Shown in pieces: positions 5,334 through 44,762 of a stretch of 64,000 nucleotides of DNA. The translations under genes and the position numbers were made by a program. The stretch lies in NCBI GenBank assembly GCA_949294555.1, contig CASFHP010000008.1, forward strand, positions 1 through 64,000, read 5' to 3'. Each line of letters starts with the position of its first letter. Position 1 is the first letter of the stretch. The stretch is from an uncultured Eubacteriales bacterium (GTDB lineage Bacteria; Bacillota; Clostridia; TANB77; CAG-508). The notes under the pieces were generated by a model. The model was given only the letters and a program-made list of their open reading frames with translations, did not search any database and was not told where the DNA came from.

Positions 5334-5387
5334 GTAAAAGGTGGAATAATATTATATAGAAAGTATATTTTAAAGAGAGGTAAAAAA

Positions 5388-6650: not shown

Positions 6651-6756
6651 TCAAATAAGTAAGTGAAAAAGATAAGTGGACGTTTTAACTGTTATTTTTT
6701 CATAACAATTAGGATTGCTCCACTTATTATTGTTGAAAAAGAAAGGAACTAAACAT

Positions 6757-8278: not shown

Positions 8279-8279
8279 G

Positions 8280-8415: not shown

Positions 8416-8463
8416 AGCAAAGTGACATTTACAAAAACGAGTATTGAGAAAGGAACGTAATAA

Positions 8464-9813: not shown

Positions 9814-9916
9814 ACAATTGGGGCCAGGTTGCTTTTTGTATCTTTTTTGTCGAAAAAAGTCGTAATACATTATATTTAGTAAAAGATGATACCTTGAGAA
9901 AGGAATGATAGAAAAC

Positions 9917-10939
9917 ATGAAAGTGTCAGAATTTGATTATGATTTACCAGAAGAACTAATTGCACAAACACCAATAGAAAAAAGAGATGAATCTAGGTTG
10001 ATGGTATTAGACAGAAGTAAACAAACAATAGAGCATAAGATATTTAAGGATATTATAGAATATTTAGAACCAGGAGATTGTTTGGTTAGAAACAATACAA
10101 AAGTTATACCAGCAAGGATTTATGGAAAAAAAGAAACAGGTGCCCATGTAGAATTTTTATTATTAAACAATATAGAAGGCGATATATGGGAAAGTATTGT
10201 AAGACCAGGCAATAAGTTACATGTAGGCACAAAAGTAATTTTTGGTGATGGTCTATTAACAGCTGAAATTTTGGAAATTATGCCAGGAGGAACAAGAAAA
10301 GTAAAATTCACATATAAAGGCATATTTAATGAAATCTTAGATAAAATCGGTCTAATGCCTTTACCACCATATATTCATGAAGAATTAAAAGATAATGATA
10401 GATATCAAACTGTATATGCAAAATATGAAGGTTCAGCAGCAGCTCCAACAGCAGGATTGCATTTTACACCAAAGTTATTGAAACAAATAGAAGAAAAAGG
10501 TGTGAAAATTGCAAATGTTACATTACATGTTGGCATAGGCACATTTAGACCAGTAAAAGAAGAAAATGTAGAAGAACATCAAATGCATACAGAACATTTT
10601 TATATCAAACAAGAAGATGTTGACAAAATAAATGAAACAAAAAAACAAGGAAAAAGAGTCATTGCAGTAGGAACAACCTCTTGTAGAGTATTGGAAACCA
10701 TTGCAGATGAACATGGAATGGTAAAAGAAACAGAGGGAGACACGGGAATATACATATATCCAGGATATCATTTTAAATGTTTAGATGGATTAATTACCAA
10801 TTTTCACTTACCACAATCCACTTTGCTAATGCTTGTATCTGCATTAGCAGGAAAAGATTATATCATGAAAGCATATAATGAAGCAGTTAAAGAAAAATAT
10901 AGATTTTTTAGTTTTGGAGATGCAATGTTTATCAAATGA
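9917..10939 (+). CDS. queA: S-adenosylmethionine:tRNA ribosyltransferase-isomerase
   Basis: 340 residues. Transfers the ribosyl part of SAM to preQ1-tRNA to form epoxyqueuosine in the wobble position of GUN tRNAs. Recognised by [14 protein letters not shown] at the N-terminus, [12 protein letters not shown] in the middle and [17 protein letters not shown] near the C-terminus. The ATG at 9917 is preferred because the upstream ATG (9905) directly abuts the AGGA ribosome site. It is followed by tgt, its partner in the pathway, across a palindromic spacer. Confidence 0.96.
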
Positions 10940-10965
10940 AAAAACAAAAATAAGTTTGTCAATGG

Positions 10966-11069
10966 TGTCAATGGGGACGGAGATTTTGACAACTTAATAA
11001 AAGAATTAAAACTATATAATAAATAAGGAAAGAAAGAAGAAGTTGTCAAAATCTCCGTCCCCATTGACA
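10966..11069. repeat. GGGGACGGAG palindrome between queA and tgt
   Basis: A perfect 30-base inverted repeat (10966-10995 and 11040-11069) carrying TCAATGGGGACGGAG encloses an A/T-rich 44-base loop. The right arm ends 5 bases before the tgt ribosome site (GAGGAGG). The GGGGACGGAG core recurs at 25899-25955 and 32607-32732. I recall similar GGGGACGG repeats in other Firmicutes genomes but cannot verify that here. Confidence 0.85.
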
Positions 11070-11075
11070 ACTTGA

Positions 11076-12209
<1,134 letters not shown>

Positions 12210-12258
12210 ATGTGTATATTAATAGCTAACTATTTATAGATAGATAGGGGGAATACAA

Positions 12259-13737
12259 ATGAATTTATTAAATGAGGACTATTCAGAAACTAAAAAAAAT
12301 AAAACAAAAACACTAATTAAAGTAATTATTGTATTAATTGTTTTGGTTGTTATTGCTATTATTGGAATCATTTCTTATATGATGTATTTACAAAGAATGG
12401 AATTAAAAGTGCTTCTAAATGCACAACAAAATGATGATTTAAAAAATTTATTAGTTTTTGAAACAGATGGAACCATATATGTCCCAGTAAGAGCCATTTC
12501 TTCATTTTTAGGATATAGTTGTTATAATGGAGAATATACAGATAGATCCGAAGACAATAGTAAATGTTATGTACAAAGTGAAGTCGAAGTGGCAAATCTT
12601 ACATTAAATTCTAATAAAATATATAAATTAAATTTATCTGGAAATGAACAAGAATATACATATGTATATATGGATAAACCAGTAAGAGCTATTAATGGAC
12701 AATTATATATTACAACAGATGGTATGCAAAAAGTATTTAATACAACTTTTGAATATAATGAAGAAAGCAATACAATTACAATTGATACGATACCATATTT
12801 AACAAGTATATATCAAACTGCAGTTTTGGATTATGGTTATACCGGATTAAGTGATGTTCTTGAAAATCAAAAGGCAATGTTAAAAAATATGCTTGTTGTA
12901 ACAAATGGTAATGGATATGGTGTTATTAATGGATTAGATGGAACAGAAATATTGGAATGTAAATATGACAATATTCTTTATCAACAACTTGTAGGTGATT
13001 TTATTGTTGTAAGTGATGGAAAATATGGAATTATTGGCACAGATCAAAAAACAAAAGTTGAAATAAGTTATGATAATATTAAACTAATAGATTATGATGC
13101 AGGATTATATTTAGTACAGAGAAATGGTCGATATGGCATTATTGATTTGAATGGGAATACAGTTATATACCCAGAAAATGACCAAATTGGTGTAGATATT
13201 TCTCGATTTGAAGAAAATAACTTGAAAACAGGATATATATTGGTAGATAATTTAATACCAGTTATGAGAGATAATAAATGGGGACTATTCGACTTACGTG
13301 GAAATCAAGTAGTTGCTTTTGAATATGATAGTTTTGGATATATAGCTAATAATAGTAGAGATGCTATCAATTTATTAGTTATACCAAGCTATAATGTAAT
13401 TGTAGCTTGTTTAAATAATCGATATACATTATTAAATGCTTCTGGAGAACAAACTTTTAAAGCTTTTGTTGATGATATTTACATGACTAATAATGGTGGA
13501 GAAATACATTATACAATGATAGCAAATGATAGAACATATGATGTGGAGGATTATCTAGATAGATTAGGTGTACAACAAGTATCAACAAACAATACAACAA
13601 ATACTTCATCAAATACAACAAATACCTCATCAGGAACAACTGATCAAACAGTTAATGAGACTGTTGAAGAAAATACTCAAAACGGAGAAGAACAGTCAAG
13701 CAATGAGGGACAAACTATTCAGGAAGTAGAAGAATAG
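12259..13737 (+). CDS. WG-repeat membrane protein with copper amine oxidase-like N-terminal domain
   Basis: 492 residues. A short cytoplasmic N-terminus is followed by one membrane helix (about 20-45). A domain containing YVPVRAISSFLGY resembles the copper amine oxidase N-terminal fold that many Clostridia use as a wall- or ligand-binding module. Several WG-type repeats follow (GYGVINGLDG, KYGIIGTD, RYGIIDLNG, KWGLFDLRG; about 210-360). The tail (about 435-492) is Thr/Ser/Asn/Glu rich. It is probably extracellular and binds an unknown ligand. A GGGGGA site lies upstream. No enzymatic residues were recognised. Confidence 0.75.
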   Translation: MNLLNEDYSETKKNKTKTLIKVIIVLIVLVVIAIIGIISYMMYLQRMELKVLLNAQQNDDLKNLLVFETDGTIYVPVRAISSFLGYSCYNGEYTDRSEDNSKCYVQSEVEVANLTLNSNKIYKLNLSGNEQEYTYVYMDKPVRAINGQLYITTDGMQKVFNTTFEYNEESNTITIDTIPYLTSIYQTAVLDYGYTGLSDVLENQKAMLKNMLVVTNGNGYGVINGLDGTEILECKYDNILYQQLVGDFIVVSDGKYGIIGTDQKTKVEISYDNIKLIDYDAGLYLVQRNGRYGIIDLNGNTVIYPENDQIGVDISRFEENNLKTGYILVDNLIPVMRDNKWGLFDLRGNQVVAFEYDSFGYIANNSRDAINLLVIPSYNVIVACLNNRYTLLNASGEQTFKAFVDDIYMTNNGGEIHYTMIANDRTYDVEDYLDRLGVQQVSTNNTTNTSSNTTNTSSGTTDQTVNETVEENTQNGEEQSSNEGQTIQEVEE

Positions 13738-13829
13738 AATGAGCTTACATCTAATTACATCGAATAAAAAAACTTGTTAGATACGAAAAAATTTATATAT
13801 AGTTAAGATTAATTCCTATATAATAAAAA

Positions 13830-13866
13830 GGGTATTTGCTTGAAAAAAGGCAAATATCTTTTTTTG
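13830..13866 (+). terminator. Terminator after the WG-repeat gene
   Basis: GGTATTTGC and GCAAATATC pair around a short loop and are followed by seven T residues, before the fabH start region. Confidence 0.75.
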
Positions 13867-13956
13867 ACCAGTCATACTAATAGAAAAAATTAAAAAAATA
13901 GTATATAAATATATAAGGGAAAAAACGTGTATCAAATTCAAGAAAGAGGTATATAA

Positions 13957-14892
13957 GTGAAAAATATACAAATAGTAACCAATGGAATTTATTTCCCGAA
14001 AAAGCAAATAGCAAATGAAGAATTGGAAAATAGATTACATTTAGAAAAAGGATATATCGAAAAAAGAACAGGAATTAAAAAGCGATATTATGCAATTGAA
14101 GAAACAATAGAAGACATGGCATTAGAAGCTGTAAAAAATGCTTTGTCTAAAACAGAAGAAAAGGAAAACATCGGATTAATCATAACAGCAACAACCAGTA
14201 CAAATTTGCTAATGCCAGGAATATCAAATTATATTCAGAAGACATTAGAGCTTCCTCCTTGTATATGTTTAGATATACTAGCTGGCTGTGGAGGATATAT
14301 TAATGCTTTTGATATTGCTAAACTTTATATAGATTCAGGAACTATCGAAAAAGCATTAATCATTGGCGTAGATAAACTATCTGAAATTATCGACAAAGAA
14401 GATGTTGGGACAGCAGTTGTATTATCAGACGGAGCAGGAGCAACATTGATAGCAAAAGATGAAGAAAATAAAAAAGAAAGAATATATGTAACCCACATGC
14501 AATCAGACGGAGAAAAAAATGAAATCCTAACATATCAATATGGTCAAAAATTATATATGAATGGAAAAGAAGTATATAAATATGCAATAACAAACACAGT
14601 GAAAAATATTGATGGATTACTAAATAAAGCAAAAATTTCATTAGAAGATATTAAATACATAATTCCACATCAATCCAATTTAAAAATCATGAAAGCAATT
14701 GCTACAAGATTACATATTTCAATGGAAAAAATGTATACAAACATACAAACAAGAGGAAACACCTTTTGTGCAAGTATTCCAATTGCGTTATATGATATGC
14801 AAAATGAAGGACTTTTGAAAAAAGGCGATAAAGTCATTTTATTAGGATATGGTGGAGGATTAAATACAGGAAGTATTTTGATGGAAATGTGA
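13957..14892 (+). CDS. fabH: 3-oxoacyl-ACP synthase III
   Basis: 311 residues with a GTG start; AAAGAGGT lies 6 bases upstream. Starts fatty-acid synthesis by condensing acetyl-CoA (or a branched primer) with malonyl-ACP. The catalytic triad is visible: Cys in DILAGCGGYINAF (usually A-C-S/G-G), His in IPHQSN and Asn in RGNTFCAS. First gene of the fatty-acid cluster. An imperfect copy of the usual GNTSAAS (here GNTFCAS) is a small peculiarity. It is followed 33 bases later by fabD, with a GTCCAATTGGAC palindrome in between. Confidence 0.93.
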   Translation: MKNIQIVTNGIYFPKKQIANEELENRLHLEKGYIEKRTGIKKRYYAIEETIEDMALEAVKNALSKTEEKENIGLIITATTSTNLLMPGISNYIQKTLELPPCICLDILAGCGGYINAFDIAKLYIDSGTIEKALIIGVDKLSEIIDKEDVGTAVVLSDGAGATLIAKDEENKKERIYVTHMQSDGEKNEILTYQYGQKLYMNGKEVYKYAITNTVKNIDGLLNKAKISLEDIKYIIPHQSNLKIMKAIATRLHISMEKMYTNIQTRGNTFCASIPIALYDMQNEGLLKKGDKVILLGYGGGLNTGSILMEM

Positions 14893-29331: not shown

Positions 29332-29359
29332 ATTAACATAAAAGAAAAAGACAATAAAA

Positions 29360-29622
29360 AAGAGGAGTAAGTTTACACATATTTTTAGAGAATAGAAGTC
29401 ACTGGCTGGAAGCTTCTTAAATAATGATAAACCGAAGGTAGCTTTTTTGTTGATATTCTGAAAACGATAGTAAGAATATCCGTTTAAGCAACGTTAAAGG
29501 CTAAAGAGATATATAATTGATTTTGTTTTTATCCAAAAATATATAAAAATGAATGATTATATAATTAAGGTGGTACCGTGAATATTATTCGCCCTTATGT
29601 TTTGCACATAAGGGCGTTTTTG
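29360..29622 (+). ncRNA. T-box leader (valine) controlling the small ORF and valS
   Basis: The antiterminator bulge sequence AAGGTGGTACCGTG (29567-29580) matches the T-box consensus. It is followed by a strong terminator: CGCCCTTATGT (29590-29600) and ACATAAGGGCG (29606-29616), then T residues. Upstream, 29384-29500 contains stem I-like sequence with GGAAGC and paired segments. A GTA at 29470-29472 is a possible specifier codon, not proved. The role is to sense uncharged tRNA-Val and allow transcription of valS. Confidence 0.88.
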
Positions 29623-32606: not shown

Positions 32607-32732
32607 AATGGGGACGAGCGATGATTTGGGGACGGAGCAAAAATCATCATTTCTATAAAGATTTTTTATAAAACTTTTTATAGAATAAATGATGATTTTT
32701 GCTCCGTCCCCAAATCATCTTCCGTCCCCATT
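32607..32732. repeat. GGGGACGGAG palindrome between valS and the XRE gene
   Basis: Two 46-base arms (32607-32652 and 32687-32732) match except for a 4-base patch. Each carries AATGGGGACG and TTTGGGGACGGAGC. The loop has a smaller CTATAAA/TTTATAG hairpin. The genes on both sides converge, so it can serve as terminator. The right arm overlaps the last codons of the XRE gene. Confidence 0.85.
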
Positions 32733-32993
32733 AATATCCATATCTTCTAAATTTTTAGAACGTGCATATGGTTTTGGCTCATCTGTTATTCCTAATAGAT
32801 AATCAATAGAAGTATCATAATAAAGTGATAAATTTATTAAAATCCTTGTAGGGATGTCATTTTCACCTGTTTCATATTTTGAATAACCTGTTTGTGACAT
32901 GTTTAAAATTGTCGCAATTTTTTTTTGTGTCAAATCATGGTCTTCTCGTAATGAACGAATTCGTGTGTAAACTTTAAAAAATTTGTTATTCAT
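32715..32993 (-). CDS. XRE-family transcriptional regulator
   Basis: 92 residues, AAAGGAGG site before the ATG. Helix-turn-helix with RIRSLREDHDLTQKKIATIL, then TGYSKYETGENDIP (residues about 10-50) and a short helical tail DYLLGITDEP. Such short XRE proteins act as repressors of neighbouring genes. The last residues (MDINGDGR) are encoded inside the palindromic repeat, so the tail seems acquired from it. A palindrome in the promoter upstream of the sortase gene is a candidate operator. Confidence 0.85.
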   Translation of the reverse strand: MNNKFFKVYTRIRSLREDHDLTQKKIATILNMSQTGYSKYETGENDIPTRILINLSLYYDTSIDYLLGITDEPKPYARSKNLEDMDINGDGR

Positions 32994-33136: not shown

Positions 33137-33191
33137 TTGACTTTTAACCTAAATTAGGTTAAAATATAAATCGAATAACCTGAAACAGATT
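33137..33191 (+). promoter_or_regulatory. Promoter with palindromic operator upstream of sortase
   Basis: TTGACT (33137-33142), 17 bases, TAAAAT (33160-33165). TAACCTAAATTAGGTTA (33145-33161) is a perfect odd-centred palindrome filling the spacer. A degenerate copy TAACCTGAAACAGATTA follows at 33175-33191, exactly 30 bases later. Binding there by the adjacent XRE protein or another repressor is an inference. Confidence 0.6.
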
Positions 33192-33215
33192 AAAATACAA
33201 AAGTGCGATACAAAT

Positions 33216-33252
33216 AAAATAGCCATACATGTTTCAGGAACGAGGCTATTTT
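33216..33252 (+). terminator. Hairpin in the sortase leader (possible attenuator)
   Basis: AAAATAGCC and GGCTATTTT form a 9-base stem with a loop of about 19 bases. It lies between the promoter at 33137 and the sortase start, followed by TTATGC rather than a long T-run. It could be a weak terminator, attenuator or the 3' end of an upstream transcript. Confidence 0.45.
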
Positions 33253-33328
33253 ATGCATTATTCTTAACTATAAATATAGTGGGGGAGACAAACACAATAG
33301 AAAAAATAAGGAGGTGAAGGAGGAAGAT

Positions 33329-33967
33329 GTGAAAAGAGTTATATATCGTCGAGGAAAAAGAGCGACCAAAAAGAAAATAAACAAGAAAAAACTATTTGGG
33401 CTAATCCTTCTTTTTGCAGTCTTTGTGATTATATGCATTGAAATGTATAGTAAAAAAGAAAGCAATGCACATGCAACTAGCGACACTTCGGTTGAAATTA
33501 CAAATGAAACTACGGACAATAACACAGTTTCTGAAGAAGAAAAAAATATTGTAGATGTGGATATCCCTGATACCGTAGGCGGTTATAATGTCTTAGGTCA
33601 ATTGGTACTAGAAAAGATAGGTGTAACACAAAATATTTTGGATAGAACTGAAGATGATTCTTTAAAAGTTGGGGTAACAAAATTTTATGGACCCAAGATT
33701 GATCAAGCTGGAAATTTTTGCATATGTGGTCACAATTACGCAGGTATCTTGAAAGATTTGAAAGAAATGAATGAAGGAGATGAATTTTATATCATCTCAA
33801 AAGATAAAAAAGAAAGAGTGGATTACAAAATTTATGATATGTATTCATGTGAGCCAACAGATTTATCTTGTTTAACGCAAAACCAAGACGGAAAGAGAGA
33901 AGTAACTCTGATAACATGTGATCCTGGGGGATTAACGAGGCTAATATGCAAGGCAAGAGAGATGTAA
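33329..33967 (+). CDS. Sortase (transpeptidase)
   Basis: 212 residues with GTG start (33329) after GGAGG; GTG 33314 is too close to its own site. One N-terminal membrane helix (about 20-37) precedes the catalytic domain. Visible catalytic residues: His in NFCICGHNYAG, Cys in TLITCDPGG and Arg in LTRLICKAR. This is the cysteine transpeptidase that cleaves LPxTG-like signals and joins proteins to peptidoglycan. The next gene encodes an LPQTG substrate. The class (B or D-like) cannot be fixed by eye. Confidence 0.88.
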   Translation: MKRVIYRRGKRATKKKINKKKLFGLILLFAVFVIICIEMYSKKESNAHATSDTSVEITNETTDNNTVSEEEKNIVDVDIPDTVGGYNVLGQLVLEKIGVTQNILDRTEDDSLKVGVTKFYGPKIDQAGNFCICGHNYAGILKDLKEMNEGDEFYIISKDKKERVDYKIYDMYSCEPTDLSCLTQNQDGKREVTLITCDPGGLTRLICKAREM

Positions 33968-34032
33968 CGTTAAAAAATGTATTGATAAAAGTACATAAGA
34001 TTATAAAAAAATAAGAAAGGAAAGTGAAAAAA

Positions 34033-34713
34033 ATGAAAAAGAAAATATTAGGAATAGTAATAACATTAGTAATAATGATGGGAATGATGGTAAGCCAAGT
34101 AAATGCTGCCACAATAAGTGCAAGTAATACAGAGGTAAATAAAGGAGATGAATTGACAGTAACCGTTAATTTAGATAATCCAACACAAGCAATCGATTTA
34201 GTTTTAACTTATGATGCAAATAGTTTTGAATATGTAAAAGGTTCAGTAACTTCAAGTATTGGAGACTTAACAGTAAATGACACAGTAGCTGGAGAAGTAA
34301 GATTATCAGCTGCAAGTGCAACAAATTCAACAACATCTGTAACATATACATTTGTTGCAACAGAAAACACAGATGCAGCAGCATTTAATGCTAGCGGATT
34401 AGTAACAGAAAGTGGAGAAGAATTTACAGTTGATTCTGTATCAGTTAGTGTTGTAGAAGCAGAAGAACCAACACAACCAGAAAATCCAGAACAACCAACA
34501 AATCCAGAACAACCTTCAACAGAAAATCCTGGAGAAACAACAAATAACGAACAAAATGGTAGTGAAACAAATACAGACGCTCCATTAGTAGATGAAAATG
34601 GAAATGTTATTACAAAATTACCACAAACAGGTGTAAATGTTTATACAGTAATTGCAGGAATTGCAGTAGTTGCAATCGCAACAGTTTTCGTGGTTAGAAA
34701 AGTTAGAAAATAA
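34033..34713 (+). CDS. LPQTG-anchored cohesin-domain surface protein
   Basis: 226 residues from ATG 34033 (AGAAAGGAAAG upstream). Signal peptide (about 1-25) ending in VNA. A cohesin-like domain (about 27-140) follows, with KGDELTVTVNLDN, AIDLVLTYDANSFEYV and later strands. Then comes a Pro/Glu/Asn/Thr-rich linker and a sortase signal: LPQTG near 196-200, a hydrophobic helix and KVRK. Cohesins bind calcium-loaded dockerins. The adjacent downstream gene encodes a dockerin protein and the upstream gene a sortase, so this protein is probably the wall anchor. Confidence 0.9.
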   Translation: MKKKILGIVITLVIMMGMMVSQVNAATISASNTEVNKGDELTVTVNLDNPTQAIDLVLTYDANSFEYVKGSVTSSIGDLTVNDTVAGEVRLSAASATNSTTSVTYTFVATENTDAAAFNASGLVTESGEEFTVDSVSVSVVEAEEPTQPENPEQPTNPEQPSTENPGETTNNEQNGSETNTDAPLVDENGNVITKLPQTGVNVYTVIAGIAVVAIATVFVVRKVRK

Positions 34714-34726
34714 GGAGGAAAAGAAG

Positions 34727-37700
34727 TTGAATAAGAGATTAAAAATAGTATCATCATTAGCATTAGCTGGAATGCTAGTAACAAGTAGTTTGGGTATGAA
34801 CAAAGTATTCGCTGCAACAGCAGAAGATAATTATACAACAAATCCAGTAGCTGTATATAGAAATTTAGTAGAAGGAAAAACAGTTGTACCATTTGTATTA
34901 GTAAATAGAGATGATGTATTAACTGTAAAAGATGTTGTAGAAAGTGATATGTTCAGCGGAAAAGTAGAAACAATCAATGGAACAGCAATTTCTTCACTAG
35001 ACACTTTAGTAGGTACAGGAGATAAATTTACAACAACAGACGGAACAGAATATACAATTGTTGTATATGGAGATGTTGATGGAGATGGAAGAATTAATGC
35101 ATTAGATGCTTTACAAGTAGAAAGAAGTAATGTAAATATGGTTACTTTAGATGATGTACAAAGAGAAGCAGCAGATGTAAAAAATGATGCTAGAGTAAAT
35201 TCATTAGATTCTTTAGCAATTAAGAGATATGTTGTAGGTTTAAGTGAAAGTGTAATAGATACATTACCAGAAAAAGAAGAAGTAGTAGAAGATTCTAATT
35301 ACACATTAAGTTTAAAAGATGCTAGCTATGTAAACAGCACAAATGTTGAAGGAGCTACATTAAAAATGGACTTGAAAGAAACATTAGATAAAGCTACAAA
35401 TCTAAAACTTGTTGTATCTGATGGAGAAAATAAAGTAGAACAAAATGTAACCGTATCAGCACATACAGATTATATGGAAATCGCTTTATCATCTTTAGCA
35501 GGATTAAAAGATGGAACATTAACAGTTGATTTATATGATGGAGAAACCATTGTAGGAACTGTTCAAGTTGTAAAAAATACAGTAGTTCCAGATGCTACAA
35601 ATGTAAATGCTAATCGTACAAGTACAAGAAATGCAACACTTTCTCTAGAAAAATGTGGAGCAAGTGATGTAACAAAAGTAAAATATGTAGTTAAAGGAAT
35701 GAATGATGCAACACCAGCATTAACAGAATTAACAAATTCTGTAGATGTTCAAAATGGAAAACTAACAGATGCTCAAATTGCTGACAATCTTCAAACAAAT
35801 ACAGCATATAAAGTATTCTATGTAGTAGAAAACCAATATGGTTCACAATCTGCAATTAAAGAAGCAGTTATTGCAAGTGATGCTGCAAATGTAGAAGCAG
35901 AAAAAGCATTACAAGAAGTTGTAGCACCAGATTTAACAGAAACTGCAGAAGCGAAATTTACTTGGTCAGAAACAGGAAACACATATGTTGCAACATTATA
36001 CAAAGATGGTTCAGCAGTTAGTGAAAAAACTGTAACAGCAAGTGAAGTAGACTTCTCAGCAGAAATGAAAGCAAATGGAACATATAAAGTTTCAGTTGTT
36101 GTAAAAGGTGCAGATGATGGTTCATCTACAAATTTTCCTGCTAAAGAATCAGCAGAAGTAACAGTAAGCACTTTAAAAGCAGTTGAAGATTTAAAATTTG
36201 AAAATAGAGAAAATGGAAAAGTTGTATTATCATGGACAAATCCAAATGGTAAAGATGACTTCAAAGCATATGACATCGACTTATATACTGTTGATGCAGA
36301 AGGAAAAGAAACAAAAGTGCAAGATGTAACTTGTAATAAAGTAAATGCAAATAATGAACTTGTAAGCGAAGTTGAAGTATCATTAAATACAAATACAATT
36401 TATGTTGCTAAAGTAAAACTTGAAGCAAATGATAATCAAGCAGGTGTATTAAGCACAAATTATGTTGCTTCAGAGCAATTCTATAAAGTTGCAGCTCCAA
36501 ATATGGATACAGCAACAAAAGGTTCAACAAGCGTTACATTCACAATTAATCCAATTAATATTGCTAATAAAGAAGTAACATATAAAGTTGAAGTATATGA
36601 TGTAAAAGTAAATAATGATGCAACAGAAGCAAGATATACATTAAATTCAACAAGAGATGTTACAGTAAGCAAAGATAACAAAATTACAGTTGATGGTTTG
36701 ACATCATTAAATACATATGCATTCAAACTAGTTGCCACAGTTGATGGAAACGAAGTTGAATCAGAATATAGTGATGAAATTAGAACATTACCAACAATTG
36801 AAAACTTAACAGTTGATACAGCAGTAGAAGCTGGAAAAGCAAATTCAGGAAAAATTGCTGTTGATGGTAATAACCTAGTAATCAATGGAGAAGCATTTGA
36901 TACAACAGAAATTACAGAATTAGCAACAGCTAAAACAGTTCTTGAGCATCTTGAAGTAGGAGATGTTGTAACAATTAATGATAATGCTACAAATGTTACA
37001 GTGAACTTAGCTGGTGCAGCTTCAACAACTACTGTTGCAGAAAGAGATTTTGGTGATTTATCAAATGCAACTGTAACAATTGAAAACAACCAATACAACA
37101 AAATCATTAAAGGAACATTTAAAGCATTAACATTAAATGGTAATGGAGCTATTTATACAGTTAATGATGTAACAAGTGAAAATCCTATTGTTGTTGCAGA
37201 TGGTGTAGAAGTTGTAGGAGATAAAGCTTACACAGTTCAAGCTGGTGCAAATGTTATCATAAATGATGTAAAAGTTAGTGCAACACAAGAAACTGCAATC
37301 AGTGCTTCTGGTAAAACATTAACAGTTACAGCAAATGAAAGTGCTAATAACTTAGTATTTGAAAACGCTTCAGACGAAGCAGCTACAATCGTATTTGATG
37401 GATTAGATAACAATACATCAGAACAAAAAGGAACAATCACCATTAAATCAAATGGTGGAAAAGTTACTGTAAAATCTGATAAAGTTAATGTAAGTGCAAA
37501 TATGAATGTTGAAGTTAATAACGGAACAGTAGATATTACTGCACCATCATTAACAGGAGATAAAACAGTTACAGTTTCTGCTGATGAAGGAAAACAATCA
37601 TCTGTTATCGCTCAAACAGAAACATCTGCTCCAGACGCAGTTAAAGCTAAAGGAACAGTTGAATTAAAAGCATATACAGATGACCAAATTAAAGAAGTAT

Positions 37701-37873
37701 TTGGCGTTACAGACCAAGATGAAATTATTGCAATTAGCGAATATATTGATTCTTTCGGTTTAAACGGAAAAGGTGCTACAATCACATTTACTACAACTGA
37801 TGAAGGTAAAGAAGCTGTTATCATCACAGTGAATGGTAATGTTGCAGATGTAGACATCAGTAATATTAAATAA
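34727..37873 (+). CDS. Large secreted dockerin protein with FN3-like and beta-rich modules
   Basis: 1048 residues with a TTG start (34727), placed 8 bases after AAGGAGG and just after the cohesin stop. No ATG, GTG or other signal fits better. Signal peptide LVTSSLGMNKVFAATA. A type I dockerin (about 114-176) has two Ca-binding repeats, DVDGDGRINALDALQVER and NDARVNSLDSLAIKRY. Dockerins are usually C-terminal; this one is near the N-terminus. FN3-like segments follow (VVLSWTNPNG near 490), and the last 350 residues are repetitive, beta-rich, Asn/Thr/Val rich. No catalytic motif or LPxTG is present. It probably docks to the neighbouring cohesin. Confidence 0.88.
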   Translation: MNKRLKIVSSLALAGMLVTSSLGMNKVFAATAEDNYTTNPVAVYRNLVEGKTVVPFVLVNRDDVLTVKDVVESDMFSGKVETINGTAISSLDTLVGTGDKFTTTDGTEYTIVVYGDVDGDGRINALDALQVERSNVNMVTLDDVQREAADVKNDARVNSLDSLAIKRYVVGLSESVIDTLPEKEEVVEDSNYTLSLKDASYVNSTNVEGATLKMDLKETLDKATNLKLVVSDGENKVEQNVTVSAHTDYMEIALSSLAGLKDGTLTVDLYDGETIVGTVQVVKNTVVPDATNVNANRTSTRNATLSLEKCGASDVTKVKYVVKGMNDATPALTELTNSVDVQNGKLTDAQIADNLQTNTAYKVFYVVENQYGSQSAIKEAVIASDAANVEAEKALQEVVAPDLTETAEAKFTWSETGNTYVATLYKDGSAVSEKTVTASEVDFSAEMKANGTYKVSVVVKGADDGSSTNFPAKESAEVTVSTLKAVEDLKFENRENGKVVLSWTNPNGKDDFKAYDIDLYTVDAEGKETKVQDVTCNKVNANNELVSEVEVSLNTNTIYVAKVKLEANDNQAGVLSTNYVASEQFYKVAAPNMDTATKGSTSVTFTINPINIANKEVTYKVEVYDVKVNNDATEARYTLNSTRDVTVSKDNKITVDGLTSLNTYAFKLVATVDGNEVESEYSDEIRTLPTIENLTVDTAVEAGKANSGKIAVDGNNLVINGEAFDTTEITELATAKTVLEHLEVGDVVTINDNATNVTVNLAGAASTTTVAERDFGDLSNATVTIENNQYNKIIKGTFKALTLNGNGAIYTVNDVTSENPIVVADGVEVVGDKAYTVQAGANVIINDVKVSATQETAISASGKTLTVTANESANNLVFENASDEAATIVFDGLDNNTSEQKGTITIKSNGGKVTVKSDKVNVSANMNVEVNNGTVDITAPSLTGDKTVTVSADEGKQSSVIAQTETSAPDAVKAKGTVELKAYTDDQIKEVFGVTDQDEIIAISEYIDSFGLNGKGATITFTTTDEGKEAVIITVNGNVADVDISNIK

Positions 37874-38174: not shown

Positions 38175-38846
38175 ATGCAAAAAATTCTAATTGTTGAAGA
38201 TGATAAAAAATTAAGACAAGAATTAGAAACGTTTTTAAATAAAAATGGATTTCTAGCAAAAGGACTAGAAAAATTTGATAATACCATTTGCGACATCATA
38301 GATGAAAAAGCAGATTTGGTATTATTAGATATCAACTTGCCATATATGGATGGAGAATTTGTATGTAAAGAAGTAAGAAAACTATCTAATGTACCAATTA
38401 TTATGGTAACAAGTAGAGATAATGAAATAGATGAATTAATGAGTTTAAATTATGGGGCAGACCAATATGTTACAAAGCCATATAATTTACAAATATTACT
38501 TGCCAAAATAACAGGATTACTAAAAAGAAACCAAAATTCAGGAAGAAATCCAGAAAAGATTGACTGTAATGGATTTGTCTTAAACATAGCAGAAAGAGTT
38601 ATAGAAAAAGAGAATCAAAAGATAGACTTAACGAAAAATGAATATAGTATTTTATATTATTTAAGTAAACATAAAGAAAAAGTAGTATCAAGAGATGAGA
38701 TTATGGACTATTTATGGGAAAGTGAAGAATTTATTGACGACAATACACTAAATGTAAATATAAAAAGATTAAGAACAAAGTTAGAAGAATTAGGATTAAA
38801 AGATAGAATAGAAACTAAAAGAGGGCAGGGGTATATATTAAAATGA
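38175..38846 (+). CDS. OmpR-family response regulator, BceR-like
   Basis: 223 residues, AGAAAGGAATG site. Receiver domain with phosphoacceptor Asp52 in LVLLDINLPYMDG and conserved EDD at 8-10 and Lys near 104. C-terminal winged-helix DNA-binding domain with NEYSILYYLSKH and ETKRGQGYILK. Four bases overlap the sensor kinase gene, so both are co-translated. With the downstream BceAB transporter it probably regulates antimicrobial-peptide detoxification. Confidence 0.9.
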   Translation: MQKILIVEDDKKLRQELETFLNKNGFLAKGLEKFDNTICDIIDEKADLVLLDINLPYMDGEFVCKEVRKLSNVPIIMVTSRDNEIDELMSLNYGADQYVTKPYNLQILLAKITGLLKRNQNSGRNPEKIDCNGFVLNIAERVIEKENQKIDLTKNEYSILYYLSKHKEKVVSRDEIMDYLWESEEFIDDNTLNVNIKRLRTKLEELGLKDRIETKRGQGYILK

Positions 38847-39859
38847 AATTTAAGGATTTTATAAAAGATAAAGTCATATTAATTGTAACTATCATATTGG
38901 CATTAATCAGCATAGAAATATTATTGTTGGCATATCCTATTGGAATAGTTGTAAAAATATATATTACAGCTATTATTGTTATGGTTGTAGCTATTTCGCT
39001 ATTATTAGAATATAAAAGAAAACAACATTTTTATAATCAATTAAAAGCGAATATGGACGAGTTAAAAGAAAAGTATCTAATTTCTGAAATTATCAAAACA
39101 CCTAATTTTATAGAAGGCAAAATTTTAAAAGAAGTTATACAAGATACAGGAAAATCTATGCTAGAAAATGTAAATTACTATAAAAATATTCAAGAAGAGT
39201 ATAAAGAATATATAGAACTATGGATTCATGAAGTAAAAATACCAATTGCAGCAAGTAAAATGATTATTGAAAACCATAAAAATGAAATAACAAAAAGTAT
39301 AGATGAAGAATTAGATAAAGTAGAAAACTATACAGAACAAGCATTGTATTATGCAAGAAGTAATGCAGTCGAAAAAGATTATATTATTACCAAAACCAAC
39401 TTAAAAGAAATTGTAAATGGAGCCATATTAAAAAATAAAAGTACATTATTAAATGAAAGAGTTGTCTTAGAATTAAAAGATTTAGAGCAAGAAGTTTATA
39501 CAGATAGTAAATGGGCAACATTTATTGTTAACCAAATTATACAAAATGCGATTAAGTATTCAAAAGAAGAGAATAAAAGAATAGAAATATTTGCAAAATC
39601 AAAAAATGATAAAGTCATTTTATATATAAAAGATAATGGAATCGGTATCAAACAAGGTGAGATCACAAGAGTATTTGAAAGAGGATTTACAGGAGAAAAT
39701 GGAAGGAGAATAGGACAAAAATCAACAGGGATTGGTTTATATTTGTGCAAGAAATTATGTGATAAATTACGCCTTGGTATAGAATTAAATTCTAAAAAGG
39801 ATGAAGGAACAGAAGTAAGAATTATATTTCCTAAAAATAGTTATACGAATTTGAAGTAG
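38843..39859 (+). CDS. Intramembrane-sensing histidine kinase, BceS-like
   Basis: 338 residues. Two close N-terminal membrane helices (about 10-30 and 36-53) with almost no loop between, the pattern of intramembrane-sensing kinases that sense through an ABC transporter. H-box IHEVKIPIAA (His near 128), N-box VNQIIQNAIKYS, then GIGIKQGEI and STGIGLYLCKKL of the ATP-binding domain. The partner transporter (41912-44762) lies downstream but is separated by a toxin-antitoxin pair. Confidence 0.9.
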   Translation: MKFKDFIKDKVILIVTIILALISIEILLLAYPIGIVVKIYITAIIVMVVAISLLLEYKRKQHFYNQLKANMDELKEKYLISEIIKTPNFIEGKILKEVIQDTGKSMLENVNYYKNIQEEYKEYIELWIHEVKIPIAASKMIIENHKNEITKSIDEELDKVENYTEQALYYARSNAVEKDYIITKTNLKEIVNGAILKNKSTLLNERVVLELKDLEQEVYTDSKWATFIVNQIIQNAIKYSKEENKRIEIFAKSKNDKVILYIKDNGIGIKQGEITRVFERGFTGENGRRIGQKSTGIGLYLCKKLCDKLRLGIELNSKKDEGTEVRIIFPKNSYTNLK

Positions 39860-39928
39860 TTTGGATAAGAGTATAATGCTGGAGAATGTTAGGGTGTGAA
39901 AATAAATAAAGTATTTTATGAAATGTTA

Positions 39929-39990
39929 TTGACATAATTTTAAATATGTTATATAATGTAATCAACTATCAATTGATAGTTGATTACATT
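39929..39990 (+). promoter_or_regulatory. Toxin-antitoxin promoter with perfect 36-base operator
   Basis: Consensus TTGACA (39929-39934), 17 bases, TATAAT (39952-39957). A perfect palindrome AATGTAATCAACTATCAA plus its complement (39955-39990) covers the end of the -10 box and the likely start site, and ends at the ribosome site. It is a strong candidate for autoregulation by the HTH antitoxin. Confidence 0.75.
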
Positions 39991-40003
39991 AGGAGGTAAA
40001 AAA

Positions 40004-40408
40004 GTGGCAGAAGGATATCAAGCAACCAAAGGAAATGTAGAAATTTTTCTAAAAGAACTAAAAGAAATACTAGAAAACCCTAAATCAAAAGTGAATATTA
40101 TTCCAAGAGAAGATAAGCCAATAGAATATTCAACAGATTATTGTTTAACAGATTTAGGCATGAATAAAGAAGATATAAAAGAAGAATTAAAAAAATTGAA
40201 ACTTGATGAATATGTGGAATGTTGTCCTGATAAAAGAAACTTAAAATCAAGAGATTATTATATATTTTGTAAAATATATAATCAGAAACAAGTATACATA
40301 AAAATAAAAATACAAAGTTATGATAATAAAATTATATTATGTATGTCATTTCATTATGCGGAATATGAAATAACTAAATTTCCATACAAGGGAAAGGAGG
40401 TAGAATAG
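40004..40408 (+). CDS. MqsR-like toxin
   Basis: 134 residues with GTG start (40004) after AGGAGGT. The tail YIKIKIQ...ILCMSFHYAEYE and the segment LTDLGMNKEDIKEELKKL match type II MqsR-family ribonuclease toxins (RelE-like fold, mRNA cleavage). The next gene, 6 bases later, encodes a two-domain antitoxin. Toxin-first order is typical for mqsRA. Activity not proven; assignment rests on motif pattern and context. Confidence 0.7.
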   Translation: MAEGYQATKGNVEIFLKELKEILENPKSKVNIIPREDKPIEYSTDYCLTDLGMNKEDIKEELKKLKLDEYVECCPDKRNLKSRDYYIFCKIYNQKQVYIKIKIQSYDNKIILCMSFHYAEYEITKFPYKGKEVE

Positions 40409-40413
40409 ATAAA

Positions 40414-41439
40414 ATGAAAGAATTAAAAAAAGTAAATATGTTTTGTTCTATTTGTGAAGAAAAACATGATGTTAGTTTAATTGAAGAAGAAAGAGAAACA
40501 ATTATAAAGGGAGAAAAGATTAAATATAAAGAATTACATTATAAATGTGATAAATATTCAGACAATAATATATTTATGTCAGATGATCTGTGGAATATCA
40601 ATTTGATTAATAGTTTAGACGAATATAGAAAGAAAAAAGATTTATTAACATCAAAAGAAATAAAAGAAATAAGAGAGAAATATCAATTAACACAAAGTGA
40701 AATGGCATATTTATTAAATTTAGGCGAGATTACTATAACAAGATATGAAACAAAGCAGATTCAAGATGCTAGTGTTGATAATATGATTAGAGAGTTGAAT
40801 GATAATCCATTATTTGCTTTAAAATTATTAGAAAAGAATAAGAATAAGTTTAAAAGATACAACGAAATAGATAAAAATATCAAAGATGTAATTGATAAAA
40901 ATATTATTAATTTTTTAAATGAACAAGAATTAATTGCAAAGTATGTAAAATATGATGAGAAATCTATTATAAATGGTAATACAGTCTTAGATATAGGAAC
41001 TTTAACAAATGTATTAGGATATATTACTAAAGAAATGGGACCAACGAAAAAAGTTGTATTAATGAAGTTATTATGGTATATAGATAGTTTGAGTTATAAA
41101 AATAATGGACATACAATTACAGGATTGGTTTATGAGCATATGCCATATGGAGCTTTGCCAATAGGACATAGAGAGATTATTGAATTATCATCAATAAAAT
41201 CGGATTTGTTTATCAATGAAAGTGAATATGAGGAATATAGGATTCAATTTAATGAAAAATATAAAATAAAAAAACTGAAAAAAGAAGAAAAAGAAATTAT
41301 AGATAAAGTTATCCATAAATTTAAGAATTATAAAAGTTATGAAATTTCTAATTATATGCATAAAGAAAAAGCATATATGGAAACAAAGGATAATGAAATT
41401 ATACCATTTTCATTCGCAAAAGAAATTAATGAATTTTAA
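40414..41439 (+). CDS. MqsA-like antitoxin fused to a Panacea (DUF4065) domain
   Basis: 341 residues, GGAGG site. The N-terminus has MFCSICEEKH, the first half of an MqsA-type zinc finger; the second CxxC is reduced to one Cys (YKCDKY), so metal binding may be lost. An XRE HTH follows (IREKYQLTQSEMAYLLNLGEI, about 87-135). The C-terminal region about 190-330, with KLLWYIDSLSYKNNGHTITG and EHMPYGALP, matches the Panacea domain known to neutralise many toxins. It probably binds the toxin and represses the palindromic promoter. Ends in a terminator. Confidence 0.78.
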   Translation: MKELKKVNMFCSICEEKHDVSLIEEERETIIKGEKIKYKELHYKCDKYSDNNIFMSDDLWNINLINSLDEYRKKKDLLTSKEIKEIREKYQLTQSEMAYLLNLGEITITRYETKQIQDASVDNMIRELNDNPLFALKLLEKNKNKFKRYNEIDKNIKDVIDKNIINFLNEQELIAKYVKYDEKSIINGNTVLDIGTLTNVLGYITKEMGPTKKVVLMKLLWYIDSLSYKNNGHTITGLVYEHMPYGALPIGHREIIELSSIKSDLFINESEYEEYRIQFNEKYKIKKLKKEEKEIIDKVIHKFKNYKSYEISNYMHKEKAYMETKDNEIIPFSFAKEINEF

Positions 41440-41458
41440 AATGTTATAATAGTTTATA

Positions 41459-41486
41459 GGTAAGATACAAAATATCTTGCCTTTTA
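41459..41486 (+). terminator. Terminator after the Panacea antitoxin gene
   Basis: GGTAAGATA and TATCTTGCC form a 9-base stem with a short A-rich loop, followed by TTTT. Confidence 0.75.
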
Positions 41487-41490
41487 ATTT

Positions 41491-41652
41491 ATGCATAGAA
41501 ATCTTTGATTTCGTTATGCATGCTTTTCTTATTACGAAAGAAAAATTGTTAGATTTTTCTGAAGTAACAAGGTTAATTTTCCTTGGACTGTGCATATTTG
41601 CGAAGCAAAATGCACATAAAGTGCGTCGAAAGCTATGCTTTCGTTAACGCAC
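41491..41652. repeat. Cluster of hairpins, copy 1 of an inverted pair
   Basis: Four hairpins in a row: ATGCATAGAAATC/GATTTCGTTATGCAT, GAAAAAT/ATTTTTC, GTGCATATTTGC/GCAAAATGCAC (41590-41615) and GTGCGT-CGAAAGC/GCTTTCG-ACGCAC. TAACAAGGTTAATTTTCCTT (41565-41584) sits between the second and third. The same order (hairpin, AACAAGGTTAA, GTGCATATTTGC hairpin) appears reversed at 49431-49512. No coding sequence is seen. Confidence 0.75.
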
Positions 41653-41757
41653 AATTATCTTACAAAAATGTAATGTAAATGTAAGATTAATCAATGGAAA
41701 GAAAAAAGAATAAGCCGTATAATAAATATAAATAAAAGATAAATAGAGGTTTACAAG

Positions 41758-41878
41758 CTTGAAAAATAATTGCGTTTTGGCGTTGTTAGACTTCATCCAA
41801 AATCAAATCAACGTGCAAAAGCACACCTCATTGATTTTGGACTTGGTTGCCTAGCCAAAAGCACAATTCTTTTCTAAG
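41758..41878. repeat. Palindromic element upstream of the BceA gene
   Basis: Outer arms 41758-41781 and 41854-41878 with TTGAAAAATAATTG and CAATTCTTTTCTAAG ends, inner perfect-type arms 41797-41816 and 41821-41840 (CCAAAATCAA), apex GTGC-AAAA-GCAC. A relative of the element at 8280. It ends about 15 bases before the GAAAGGAATG ribosome site of the transporter. With the repeat above it fills the 472-base gap. Confidence 0.75.
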
Positions 41879-41911
41879 CAATTTGTGCCTAAAGAAAGGA
41901 ATGAAACTAAA

Positions 41912-42679
41912 ATGAGTCATGTATTAGAAGTTAAAAATATCGAAAAATATTATGGAAACAAATCCAACTTAACAAAAGCAATTGCAGGAATTAGCTTTAA
42001 TGTAGAAAAAGGAGAATTTGTTGGAATCATGGGAGCATCAGGTTCAGGAAAAACAACTTTACTAAATTGTATTTCAACCATTGATAGAGTCACTGCAGGA
42101 AAAATTATGATTAACAATCAAGATATTACCAAATTAAAAGGAAATCAATTAAACAAATTTAGGAGAGAAGAATTAGGTTTTATCTTTCAAGACTTTAACT
42201 TGCTTGATACTTTAACAGCTTATGAAAACATCGCATTAGCACTTACCATTCAAAAGGTAAATCCTCATGAAATTGATAAAAGAGTAAAAGAAGTAGCTGA
42301 AAAATTAGAAATATTAGAAATTTTAAATAAATATCCATATCAAATATCAGGAGGACAAAAGCAAAGGGTAGCGTCAGCAAGAGCCATTATTACAAATCCC
42401 AAAATGGTACTTGCAGATGAACCAACAGGAGCCTTAGATTCAAAATCTGCAAGACAATTATTAGAAACATTTGAACACTTAAATAAAAACTTAGGAGCAA
42501 CGATTTTAATGGTTACACATGATGCCTTTACAGCAAGTTATGCAGATAGAATTATCTTTATTAAAGATGGAAAAATCTTTAATGAGCTTGTAAAAGGAGA
42601 AGATACAAGAAAACAATTCTTTGAAAAAATCATCGAAGTACAAACACTTCTTGGAGGTGATTTGAACGATGTTATTTAA
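41912..42679 (+). CDS. BceA-type ABC transporter ATP-binding protein
   Basis: 255 residues from ATG 41912, AAAGAAAGGAATG upstream. Walker A GASGSGKTT (near 40), signature ISGGQKQRVASARA (near 145) and Walker B MVLADEPTGALD (near 168). This is the MacB/LolD-like subfamily that works with an FtsX-type permease. Overlaps the permease gene by 11 bases. Predicted to remove peptide antibiotics from their membrane targets. Confidence 0.92.
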   Translation: MSHVLEVKNIEKYYGNKSNLTKAIAGISFNVEKGEFVGIMGASGSGKTTLLNCISTIDRVTAGKIMINNQDITKLKGNQLNKFRREELGFIFQDFNLLDTLTAYENIALALTIQKVNPHEIDKRVKEVAEKLEILEILNKYPYQISGGQKQRVASARAIITNPKMVLADEPTGALDSKSARQLLETFEHLNKNLGATILMVTHDAFTASYADRIIFIKDGKIFNELVKGEDTRKQFFEKIIEVQTLLGGDLNDVI

Positions 42680-44762
42680 ATTATCTATTAAAAATATGAA
42701 AAAGAGCTTTAAAGACTATGCCATATATTTTTTAACATTGGTATTAGGTGTTGCCATCTTCTATATGTTCAACTCTTTAGATAGCCAACAAGCAATGCTT
42801 GAAGTTTCCCAATCTACAAGAGATATGATACAACTCATGATTAGCATGTTAGGAATGGTATCTGTATTTATTGCCATTATCCTTGGATTTCTAATTGTCT
42901 ATGCAAATAACTTCTTGATAAATAGAAGAAAAAGAGAATTTGGAATTTATATGACATTAGGCATGGGAAGAAGACAAATATCACAAATTATATTAATAGA
43001 GACCATACTAGTAGGGATTATCTCTTTAATCGTTGGTATTTTTATAGGTGTATTTGGTTCTCAATTTATGTCTATATTAGTGGCAAAACTTTTTGAAGCA
43101 GATATGAGTGAATTTACCTTTGTATTTTCAAAGGATGCTTGTATCAAAACATGTATCTATTTTGCGGTTATGTATCTAGCAGTTATGATATTTAACACAT
43201 TTACCATTTCAAGATATAAATTAATTAATTTGCTAACTGCTGTTAGAAAAAATGAAAAAGTCAAAATTAAAAATCCAATTATATCTATATTGGTATTTCT
43301 AATTTCAGCAGTATTATTAGGATATGCATATTATATTGTTACAGGAGGCATTTATGAATTAAATACAGAAGAAAAAATGCTAGTACCAATTTTAATGGGA
43401 ATTGTGGGAACAATAGGTGTATTTTGGTCTTTATCAGGATTTATATTAAGAATTATCCAAACAAGAAAAAAGATATATCTAAAAGGGACCAATATGTTTG
43501 TATTAAGACAATTGAATAATAAGATTAATACAACAGTTGTGTCAATGACTGTAATATGTTTAATGTTATTTATGACAATCAGTGTGTTGTCTAGTAGTTT
43601 ATCTATTCAAACAACATTAGATTCAGAATTAGAAGAAATGACACCAGTAGATGTCAATTTATATAAAACAGCAAACTTACCAGAAAGTTATGAAGATTCT
43701 TATACAGGTAAGATGATATATCCTACTGAAGAACAAATTGAAGATTCCAAACATCCAATCACCTACACACTGGAAACTAATGGTTATGATATGAAACAAT
43801 TAAAAGATATTGTAGAAATTCCAATATATGCAATTCCAGAATGGACTTTAAAATATAGTCTAGGAAATTATTATGAAACAGCAAAAGCACAATTTTCAAT
43901 GCTTATGTATGATACACCAGAAGAAGTTATAAAAATATCTGATTATAATAAAATTGCAAAACTCTATGGGGAAGAACAATATAGCTTAAATGATGATGAA
44001 TATATTGTGCTTTGTGATTTTGATAACATGATAGAACTAAGAAATCAAGCATTAAAAGAAAATTCAACGATAGAAATAGAGGGAAAAACCTTACATGCTA
44101 AATATGATGAATGCAAAAGTGGATTTATAGAAATGTCTGCAAGTCATGTAAACACAGGAATTATATTAGTACCAGATAGCTTTGAATTAAAAGAAGAATG
44201 GAAAGAAGAACAATTTTTAGTAGCAAATTATAATGCCGAAACAGATGAAGAAAAAGAAGAAATAGAAAAAGTGTTTACAGGAGAAAATGCGGCATTATCT
44301 ACGAATTTAAATGAAAAAGGCATAGAACTAGAAGGTATGACAAAGATTAGTATAATAGAAGCAAGTAAAGGATTAGCAACCATTATTATATTTATTGCGA
44401 TTTATTTAGGTGTTATCTTCTTAATTGCAAGTTCTGCAATTTTAGCATTAAAACAATTAACAGAAAGTTCTGATAACAAACAAAGATATATGATATTGAG
44501 AAAAATTGGTTGTGATGAAAAAATGATAAATCAAGCTCTATTTAGACAAATATTCATATTTTTCATGTTACCATTAGTCTTAGCCATTATACATTCTATA
44601 TTTGGAATAAAATTCATATTATCAATGCTTGCTACACTAGCATCTCCAGATGAATTATTACCTTCTGTTGTTGTAACAGCAGTGATTATTGGTGTGATAT
44701 ATGGATTGTATTTCTTAGCGACGTATATAGGAAGTAAGAATATCATCAAAGAGGAGGATTGA
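42669..44762 (+). CDS. BceB-type FtsX-family permease
   Basis: 697 residues, GGAGG site inside the preceding gene. About ten membrane helices. A large extracellular domain (about residues 310-560) lies between helices, the hallmark of BceB permeases, which bind peptide antibiotics and signal to the kinase. FtsX-like segments occur near 55-160 and 560-690. Its kinase partner is the upstream sensor gene. Substrate cannot be predicted. Confidence 0.9.
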   Translation: MLFKLSIKNMKKSFKDYAIYFLTLVLGVAIFYMFNSLDSQQAMLEVSQSTRDMIQLMISMLGMVSVFIAIILGFLIVYANNFLINRRKREFGIYMTLGMGRRQISQIILIETILVGIISLIVGIFIGVFGSQFMSILVAKLFEADMSEFTFVFSKDACIKTCIYFAVMYLAVMIFNTFTISRYKLINLLTAVRKNEKVKIKNPIISILVFLISAVLLGYAYYIVTGGIYELNTEEKMLVPILMGIVGTIGVFWSLSGFILRIIQTRKKIYLKGTNMFVLRQLNNKINTTVVSMTVICLMLFMTISVLSSSLSIQTTLDSELEEMTPVDVNLYKTANLPESYEDSYTGKMIYPTEEQIEDSKHPITYTLETNGYDMKQLKDIVEIPIYAIPEWTLKYSLGNYYETAKAQFSMLMYDTPEEVIKISDYNKIAKLYGEEQYSLNDDEYIVLCDFDNMIELRNQALKENSTIEIEGKTLHAKYDECKSGFIEMSASHVNTGIILVPDSFELKEEWKEEQFLVANYNAETDEEKEEIEKVFTGENAALSTNLNEKGIELEGMTKISIIEASKGLATIIIFIAIYLGVIFLIASSAILALKQLTESSDNKQRYMILRKIGCDEKMINQALFRQIFIFFMLPLVLAIIHSIFGIKFILSMLATLASPDELLPSVVVTAVIIGVIYGLYFLATYIGSKNIIKEED

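Follow-up and report, generated by a model that had tools for sequence, protein, structure and literature searches.

The window, a 64,000-nucleotide (nt) stretch from an uncultured Eubacteriales bacterium (positions 1 to 64,000 of contig CASFHP010000008.1, assembly GCA_949294555.1), holds three genes in a row at 33314-37873, one for a sortase, one for a cohesin protein bearing an LPQTG wall signal, and one for a secreted protein headed by an N-terminal dockerin. Together with a divergent XRE-family regulator, the locus is read here as a regulated, plug-in surface display cassette, in which the cargo is exchangeable in relatives and single in the window; a probability of roughly 75% is given to this reading. 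A preliminary description of this DNA had placed the sortase, the LPQTG cohesin anchor and the dockerin protein side by side, which is borne out by the open reading frames (ORFs) together with Pfam/TIGRFAM, profile and fold matches; the XRE regulator and the operators, which belong to the cassette, were overlooked in it. The draft genome holding the window comprises 1.90 megabases in 68 contigs and is 96% complete, and among named entries it is closest to metagenome assemblies labelled 'uncultured Clostridia bacterium', with dockerin-protein identities of 97% and 92%. The features of the locus are listed below with their coordinates in the window.

32715..32993, minus strand: divergent XRE-family (HTH_3) regulator of 92 residues; PF01381 at 46.4 bits (cut-off 23).
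33137..33165, plus strand: promoter-like TTGACT - 17 base pairs (bp) - TAAAAT, read from the sequence.
33145..33161, strandless: putative operator 1, palindrome TAACCTAAATTAGGTTA, between the -35 and -10 elements and covering the first two -10 bases.
33176..33192, strandless: putative operator 2, imperfect palindrome TAACCTGAAACAGATTA, just behind the promoter.
33314..33967, plus strand: sortase; PF04203 at 65 bits (cut-off 26.6) and TIGR01076 at 44.4 (cut-off 39.35).
34033..34713, plus strand: secreted cohesin protein with a proline-rich stalk and LPQTG wall signal; family, profile and fold matches.
34618..34632, plus strand: LPQTG sorting motif; sequence, with PF00746 and TIGR01167 above cut-off.
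34727..37873, plus strand: secreted 1048-residue dockerin-headed protein, TTG start behind aaggagg; ORF and Pfam.
34838..35065, plus strand: conserved X-like module before the dockerin (X-dockerin head; approximate bounds); alignment of 36 heads.
35066..35233, plus strand: type I dockerin; PF00404 at 45.9 bits (cut-off 22.9).
35234..35284, plus strand: head/body junction, the position of the 13-bp recombination site of the relatives; the window genome is without the site.
35285..37870, plus strand: body (cargo) of FN3-like and beta-rich modules, ending ISNIK; body profile (11 sequences) and fn3.

In the proposed mechanism, the divergent XRE protein would bind the promoter palindromes and repress the operon, as the conserved operators suggest. 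Once expressed, the sortase would attach the cohesin protein, through its LPQTG motif, to the wall, judging from the families to which the two proteins belong, and the secreted beta-rich protein would then dock on the cohesin through its N-terminal X-dockerin head, a step to which the conserved gene order points; docking by the N-terminal head would hold a body of roughly 860 residues outward. In sister genomes, the body would be chosen from silent cassettes by inversion at an in-frame 13-bp site beside a recombinase.

The anchoring half of the cassette is readily recognized. The sortase, for which an alternative later start is possible at 33329, displays His, Cys and Arg in CICGHN, LITC and LTRLIC, which we take to be the usual sortase triad; for the product of 33314-33967 all class-specific sortase models fell below cut-off. 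The cohesin protein has an LPXTG motif, a hydrophobic stretch, a basic tail and a nearby sortase, as well as a signal peptide recognized by eye, and it is matched by Gram_pos_anchor (PF00746) at 21.0 bits (cut-off 20) and TIGR01167 at 18.5 (cut-off 15.9). By its own sequence the cohesin identity is marginal, as PF00963 scores 24.3 bits in the genome search and 25.0 when trimmed, with a cut-off of 24.1. The assignment is firmer through family, PDB profile and fold: PF00963 matches 15 of 16 cassette cohesins at E 0.01, a profile of the 16 has cohesins as its top PDB hits (2jh2, from NagJ of C. perfringens, is the best, at E 1.4e-7), and the first 11 Foldseek matches of the predicted model, itself of low confidence (predicted local distance difference test, pLDDT, of 57), are cohesins, with one of the 11 at E <= 0.001 and the NagJ cohesin among the top matches. 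The cohesin fold that the preliminary description had assumed for 34033-34713 is upheld by these three lines. In six genomes (G225, G201, G234, G152, G151 and G043; loci L178, L179, L192, L201, L205 and L120), the sortase beside the cassette is present as two separate ORFs.

The dockerin-headed protein would supply the plug. PF00404 is found at E 0.01 in 32 of the 36 aligned heads, part of them below cut-off, and the body, which is the counterpart of the unit exchanged in sister genomes, has an fn3 match of 28.7 bits (cut-off 25). No sorting signal of its own was seen in the 1048 residues, nor did Pfam give an SLH module match in the window's dockerin protein; the structure prediction (pLDDT 44) is too poor for the fold to be read, so the fibrous or S-layer-like coat suggested in the preliminary description is conjectural.

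The arrangement extends well beyond the window. At E 1e-25 the body profile matched 42 of 390 family genomes, and at E 1e-20 it matched 41 of 385 order genomes, two of the 41 being outside the family. Synteny was scored over 41 ORFs, from 36 sources, in which X-dockerin and body were both matched, six of the ORFs being from G374 and two loci (L015 and L016) being near-copies of the window; these counts and the site counts given below cover retrieved loci, the G165 head on contig C12 (with sortase and cohesin) being outside the 41, and per-genome copy numbers are lower bounds, as only some candidates were scored in each genome. A cohesin gene lies within 1.2 kilobases (kb) upstream in 38 of the 41 headed ORFs, that is 38 of the 39 for which that much sequence is present, and a sortase lies upstream in 32 of the 41, which sustains the non-cellulosomal display route with a non-catalytic dockerin protein that had been proposed earlier. 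Comparing pairwise identities, cohesin and X-dockerin have the highest Spearman correlation of six gene pairs (0.57, over 435 non-independent pairs) and body and sortase the lowest (0.15), a covariation measured from pairwise identities alone, not from trees. Between G037 and G062, the heads are 87% and the bodies 52% identical.

From this conservation we infer that the window's own cohesin and dockerin would bind one another. The genome holds six cohesins, and a head-like match is present on the dockerin protein of contig C21 (35% over window residues 58-174), as would suit an arrangement in which the head pairs with another cohesin, such as one on C21 or C28, and the genes of the operon are not the bound pair. 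This is considered unlikely, as a cohesin gene stands just upstream in nearly every testable headed ORF, the cohesin and X-dockerin covary above the other gene pairs, and in G044 (L116, 3319-5868) cohesin and X-dockerin are present within a single 849-residue protein behind a sortase, in which no LPXTG is visible.

The XRE gene points away from the sortase operon, and a divergent XRE gene is found upstream of 26 of the 41 dockerin-headed homologues (L015, G062, G037, G039 and G001 have the divergent homologue). The putative operators read TAACCT..AGGTTA (first) and TAACCT..AGATTA (second), and allowing up to one mismatch, the pattern occurs in the draft genome at 33145 and 33176 only; as the pattern was derived from these two sites, its uniqueness in the genome is the informative part. 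The other genomes offer a check that is independent of the window as source of the pattern: the putative operator core AACCTN5AGGTT is present in all 26 XRE-sortase intervals of homologous loci, 19 times perfectly and 7 times with one mismatch, where 5.1 of 26 would be expected at up to two mismatches from mononucleotide shuffles.

A leader RNA or riboswitch, considered for the interleaved inverted repeats at about 33179-33252, was rejected: there is no Rfam match, the folding is unremarkable (z -1.6), and the hairpin sits elsewhere in G062 and G037 by eye, the conserved part being promoter and operator. The leader DNA search matched 97 of 117 family genomes at E 0.1, nearly all of the matches being short and chance-like, and the comparison was made with G062 and G037 (E about 1e-12), a short match upstream of the G039 cassette serving as a pointer. 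The C-terminal end of the XRE protein, DINGDGR (window 32715-32760), recalls a dockerin calcium loop, probably by chance.

In relatives, the junction between head and body bears the 13-mer GAMCAAGAWGTTC, which encodes (D/E)Q(E/D)V and lies behind the dockerin in seven heads (codons 171-184) as well as near the start of silent ORFs. Searching 20 chosen genomes gave 51 matches in 14 genomes, as compared to 12 for the reversed pattern; 44 of the 51 lay on retrieved pieces and were analysed, one of them (G213:C6:41273) in an unrelated gene, and the remaining seven are on G374 C2, G244 C14, G143 C1, G347 C117, G335 C11 and C46, and G234 C1. The DQEV frame is open at all 36 evaluable sites and the other frames at none of them, the remaining eight sites ending within 67 nt; adjacent sites are opposite in orientation in 24 of 24 pairs, and 15 of the 44 sites lie no more than 80 nt from a contig end. 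Start-less bodies occur as tail-to-tail pairs, open at both ends, on the small contigs G095 C55, G079 C56 and G082 C60, with single-contig cases in G143, G343, G347 and G315, and in G143, G343, G165, G315, G234 and G082 the contig that bears a silent body has a stop codon directly ahead of that body. Additional silent ORFs, located via the integrase in G139 and G213, fall outside the body profile; the cargo thus comprises more than one family. Beside the array stands a tyrosine recombinase (PF00589, 108 bits), relatives of which were found at E 1e-50 in 31 of 390 family genomes; seven are at least 76% identical, and in all seven of these genomes the site lies 106-193 nt behind the integrase match (with one mismatch in G143). 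Alternating inverted sites around alternative in-frame C-termini, and a tyrosine recombinase beside the array, are two of the features by which a shufflon is recognized, and both are found in the relatives.

Several loci lie beside this set. A continuation of the G095 C28 head into the C55 bodies was left uncounted, the head end of C28 being without the C55 site. In G374, of the window's genus (L176 and L193), several cassettes stand tail to tail and every body comes with a cohesin and an X-dockerin head of its own, an array of complete cassettes rather than of silent bodies. In G380 (L181, L200) and G082 C29 (L138), related bodies or heads occur with a different module, presumably ChW-like repeats; the G380 bodies, which have this other head in front of them, were kept out of the headless count.

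The closest approach to rearrangement itself, and to a third shufflon feature, several orders within one population, is seen in G321. Its head contig C76 runs exactly to the final base of the site, and the opening 77 nt of body contig C90 repeat the final 77 nt of C76; on the integrase side, the final 77 nt of contig C33, not 78, are found within C90, starting three bases ahead of the site. By these exact overlaps the dockerin head and the integrase-side site would share one body start, a double junction as expected where reads branch; the head and integrase-side junctions are alike in 60 of 60 nt downstream and in 15 of 60 upstream. Shufflons are described as among the hardest regions to assemble, even from one clone (PMC5430464), a difficulty that fits the contig breaks at the sites. 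G079 C56 is identical, at 100% over 5942 bp, to a piece of G347 C96 that two perfect 66-nt inverted repeats flank (L122, L172); as the two genomes have different genus labels, a binning error or a very recent transfer should be kept in mind.

That shared piece, the draft state of all the relatives and the differing bodies with the same start in G213 would also be accommodated if the alternating cassettes were old duplications or artefacts of mixed-strain assembly, with no active inversion. Such an origin is quite improbable, given the strict alternation of the sites, their reading frame, the recombinase next to the site in all seven genomes and the convergence of the G321 head and integrase contigs on one body contig; that 15 of the 44 sites are at contig ends, even though a repeat of 13 nt falls well short of the 77-nt overlaps in G321 and G165, argues in the same direction. 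For the relatives, cargo exchange by inversion is a reading backed by comparative genomics; it was not seen in the window genome.

A number of results weigh against the cassette as proposed, or against one of its parts. On the binding side, the preliminary description had counted on two calcium loops in the dockerin, of which loop 1 (DVDGDGRINALD) is canonical and loop 2 (DVKNDARVNSLD), whose positions 3 and 6 are K and A, is degenerate, so that the first stands and the second is weakened; the Pfam search of the full-length cohesin protein yields no cohesin row, the G213 head dockerin scores 19.0 bits against the Pfam cut-off of 22.9, no sortase was matched in G143 and neither sortase nor cohesin at the G315 head, and cross-pairing among the several cohesins and dockerins of the genome could occur. 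On the regulatory side, the draft genome shows no excess of the operator pattern at up to two mismatches (14 matches versus 56 for the reversed control), the three matches of the pattern in the window were equalled in 5 of 100 shuffles, and an XRE gene was found neither at 15 of the 41 headed loci nor, in the pieces searched, at any of the eight inversion heads (G139, G165, G213, G234, G315, G321, G343 and G143). On the side of exchange, the 13-mer is absent from 13 of 13 inspected loci with more distant integrases (33-63% range), the relatives are draft assemblies in which orders are read from contigs alone, and two G213 bodies are alike in 60 of 60 nt at the start and 67% identical overall; the same start with a different body weakens the double junctions of G139 and G234, where head and silent copies are alike in 59 of 60 and 53 of 60 nt. 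In the window genome itself (G000) the 13-mer has no match, no integrase relative was found at E 1e-50, the body profile finds one body only, and the features of a shufflon are not present at the window locus.

Having a single body and neither the site nor a close relative of the integrase, the window genome apparently represents a locked, XRE-controlled, single-cargo form of the cassette. The distribution suggests that XRE switching and inversion may be two alternative control modes of one platform, a correlation drawn from few loci. As the relatives apparently exchange the body, a variable cargo is favoured over a uniform coat, and a variable adhesin or antigen is its likeliest use. It is reasonably probable that the system as a whole serves antigen or adhesin variation, in which the wall cohesin would be a constant socket and a chromosomal shufflon would swap bodies of ~3 kb behind the X-dockerin, with window-type lineages using the XRE switch and one cargo.

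Dockerins and cohesins as pairs are known mainly for gluing enzymes together, and in C. perfringens non-cellulosomal modules join secreted enzymes. The cassette resembles the NagJ-type secreted glycoside hydrolases of that species in joining cohesin and dockerin outside cellulosomes; it differs from the C. perfringens pairs in that the cohesin is sortase-anchored, the cassette has its own regulator and sortase, display of a non-catalytic body is predicted, and relatives apparently exchange the body. Ruminococcal ScaE-type scaffoldins hold a single cohesin on the wall via a sorting signal, as does the single wall-anchored cohesin of the window; unlike ScaE, however, no enzyme-laden scaffold is seen here, the N-terminal dockerin is on a beta-rich body, and a sortase and an XRE gene adjoin. 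The relatives are further similar to the R64/IncI2 shufflon (PilV, Rci) as described in PMC5430464 and PMC11852207, sharing a constant N-terminus, opposed alternative C-terminal segments, short conserved sites, a tyrosine recombinase next to the array and difficulty of assembly. In contrast to R64/IncI2, the exchanged units would be ~3-kb bodies behind a dockerin and not a pilin, the core GAMCAAGAWGTTC differs from the IncI2 repeat given in PMC5430464, and the likeness of the recombinase to Rci is one of description; these shufflon-like features are those of the relatives and are absent from the window genome. No literature was found that pairs dockerin with shufflon, or with invertible and recombinase, a weak negative, as subscription journals were mostly uncovered. 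In small-genome Clostridia the cohesin-dockerin pair apparently works like a socket and plug by which a large, exchangeable protein is carried on the surface, and if the cargo of the relatives is indeed shuffled, the dockerin would be the constant adaptor of a surface repertoire. Numerous naturally occurring cohesin/X-dockerin pairs are also supplied by the set, as is a display cassette that is both compact and regulated.

The remaining cohesins and dockerins of the genome bear on the question of a cellulosome. Profile searches of the contigs gave five dockerins and six cohesins, so the assembly is not the 'minimal' one that had been proposed, as other cohesin-dockerin sets exist; the dozens of catalytic dockerin proteins that would mark an ordinary cellulosome were not seen either, as the preliminary description anticipated. 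No plant-polymer enzyme model was above cut-off on the dockerin proteins of the draft, and a multi-cohesin scaffoldin with dockerin-bearing plant-polymer enzymes was not found in it. It is very improbable that the cassette anchors a cellulosome-type complex for polysaccharide degradation, with the body as the substrate-binding part of that complex: dockerin, cohesin and sortase anchoring all occur in ruminococcal cellulosomes, a ScaE cohesin appears at rank 44 among the fold matches of the window cohesin, and a pectin-type enzyme is conceivable on contig C28 from a weak rhamnogalacturonidase match, but none of the five dockerins comes with a plant-polymer enzyme model above cut-off, the anchor carries one cohesin, and the profile of the cassette cohesins finds its best PDB matches in the C. 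perfringens NagJ cohesins.

Contig C21 (L013, C21:46001-66000; 8679-14264) has a cohesin-LPKTG protein, a sortase, an SH3/Big_2/dockerin protein and a cohesin-like transmembrane protein, the last with a cohesin match of 21.0 bits, under cut-off. This is a second non-cellulosomal set, which might tether a peptidoglycan hydrolase: a SagB glucosaminidase match of 92 bits, under the cut-off of 425, is found on the dockerin protein of contig C29 alone, and the C21 dockerin protein takes the label via its 35% identity to the C29 protein over 403 residues. On contig C28 (L012, C28:1-20000; 4273-10216), three cohesin proteins come after an SLH protein with a C-terminal dockerin, and one of the three is also dockerin-bearing and a possible adaptor; the rhamnogalacturonidase model scores 19.4 bits on the SLH-dockerin protein (cut-off 500), and a GDSL match is also sub-threshold. 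In the family sample, dockerin was found at E 0.001 in 110 of 117 genomes and cohesin in 97 of 117, and dockerin ORFs of ~750 residues recur among the matches.

Directly 3' of the cassette, at 38175-44762, are genes identified by eye as a response regulator, a histidine kinase and an ABC transporter, a gene set of a type often linked to antimicrobial-peptide response. On the other side, a T-box leader (29345-29599, 97.4 bits) lies 5' of a gene that by eye resembles valine tRNA synthetase, and in G100 a valine tRNA synthetase-like gene also adjoins the sortase-cohesin genes.

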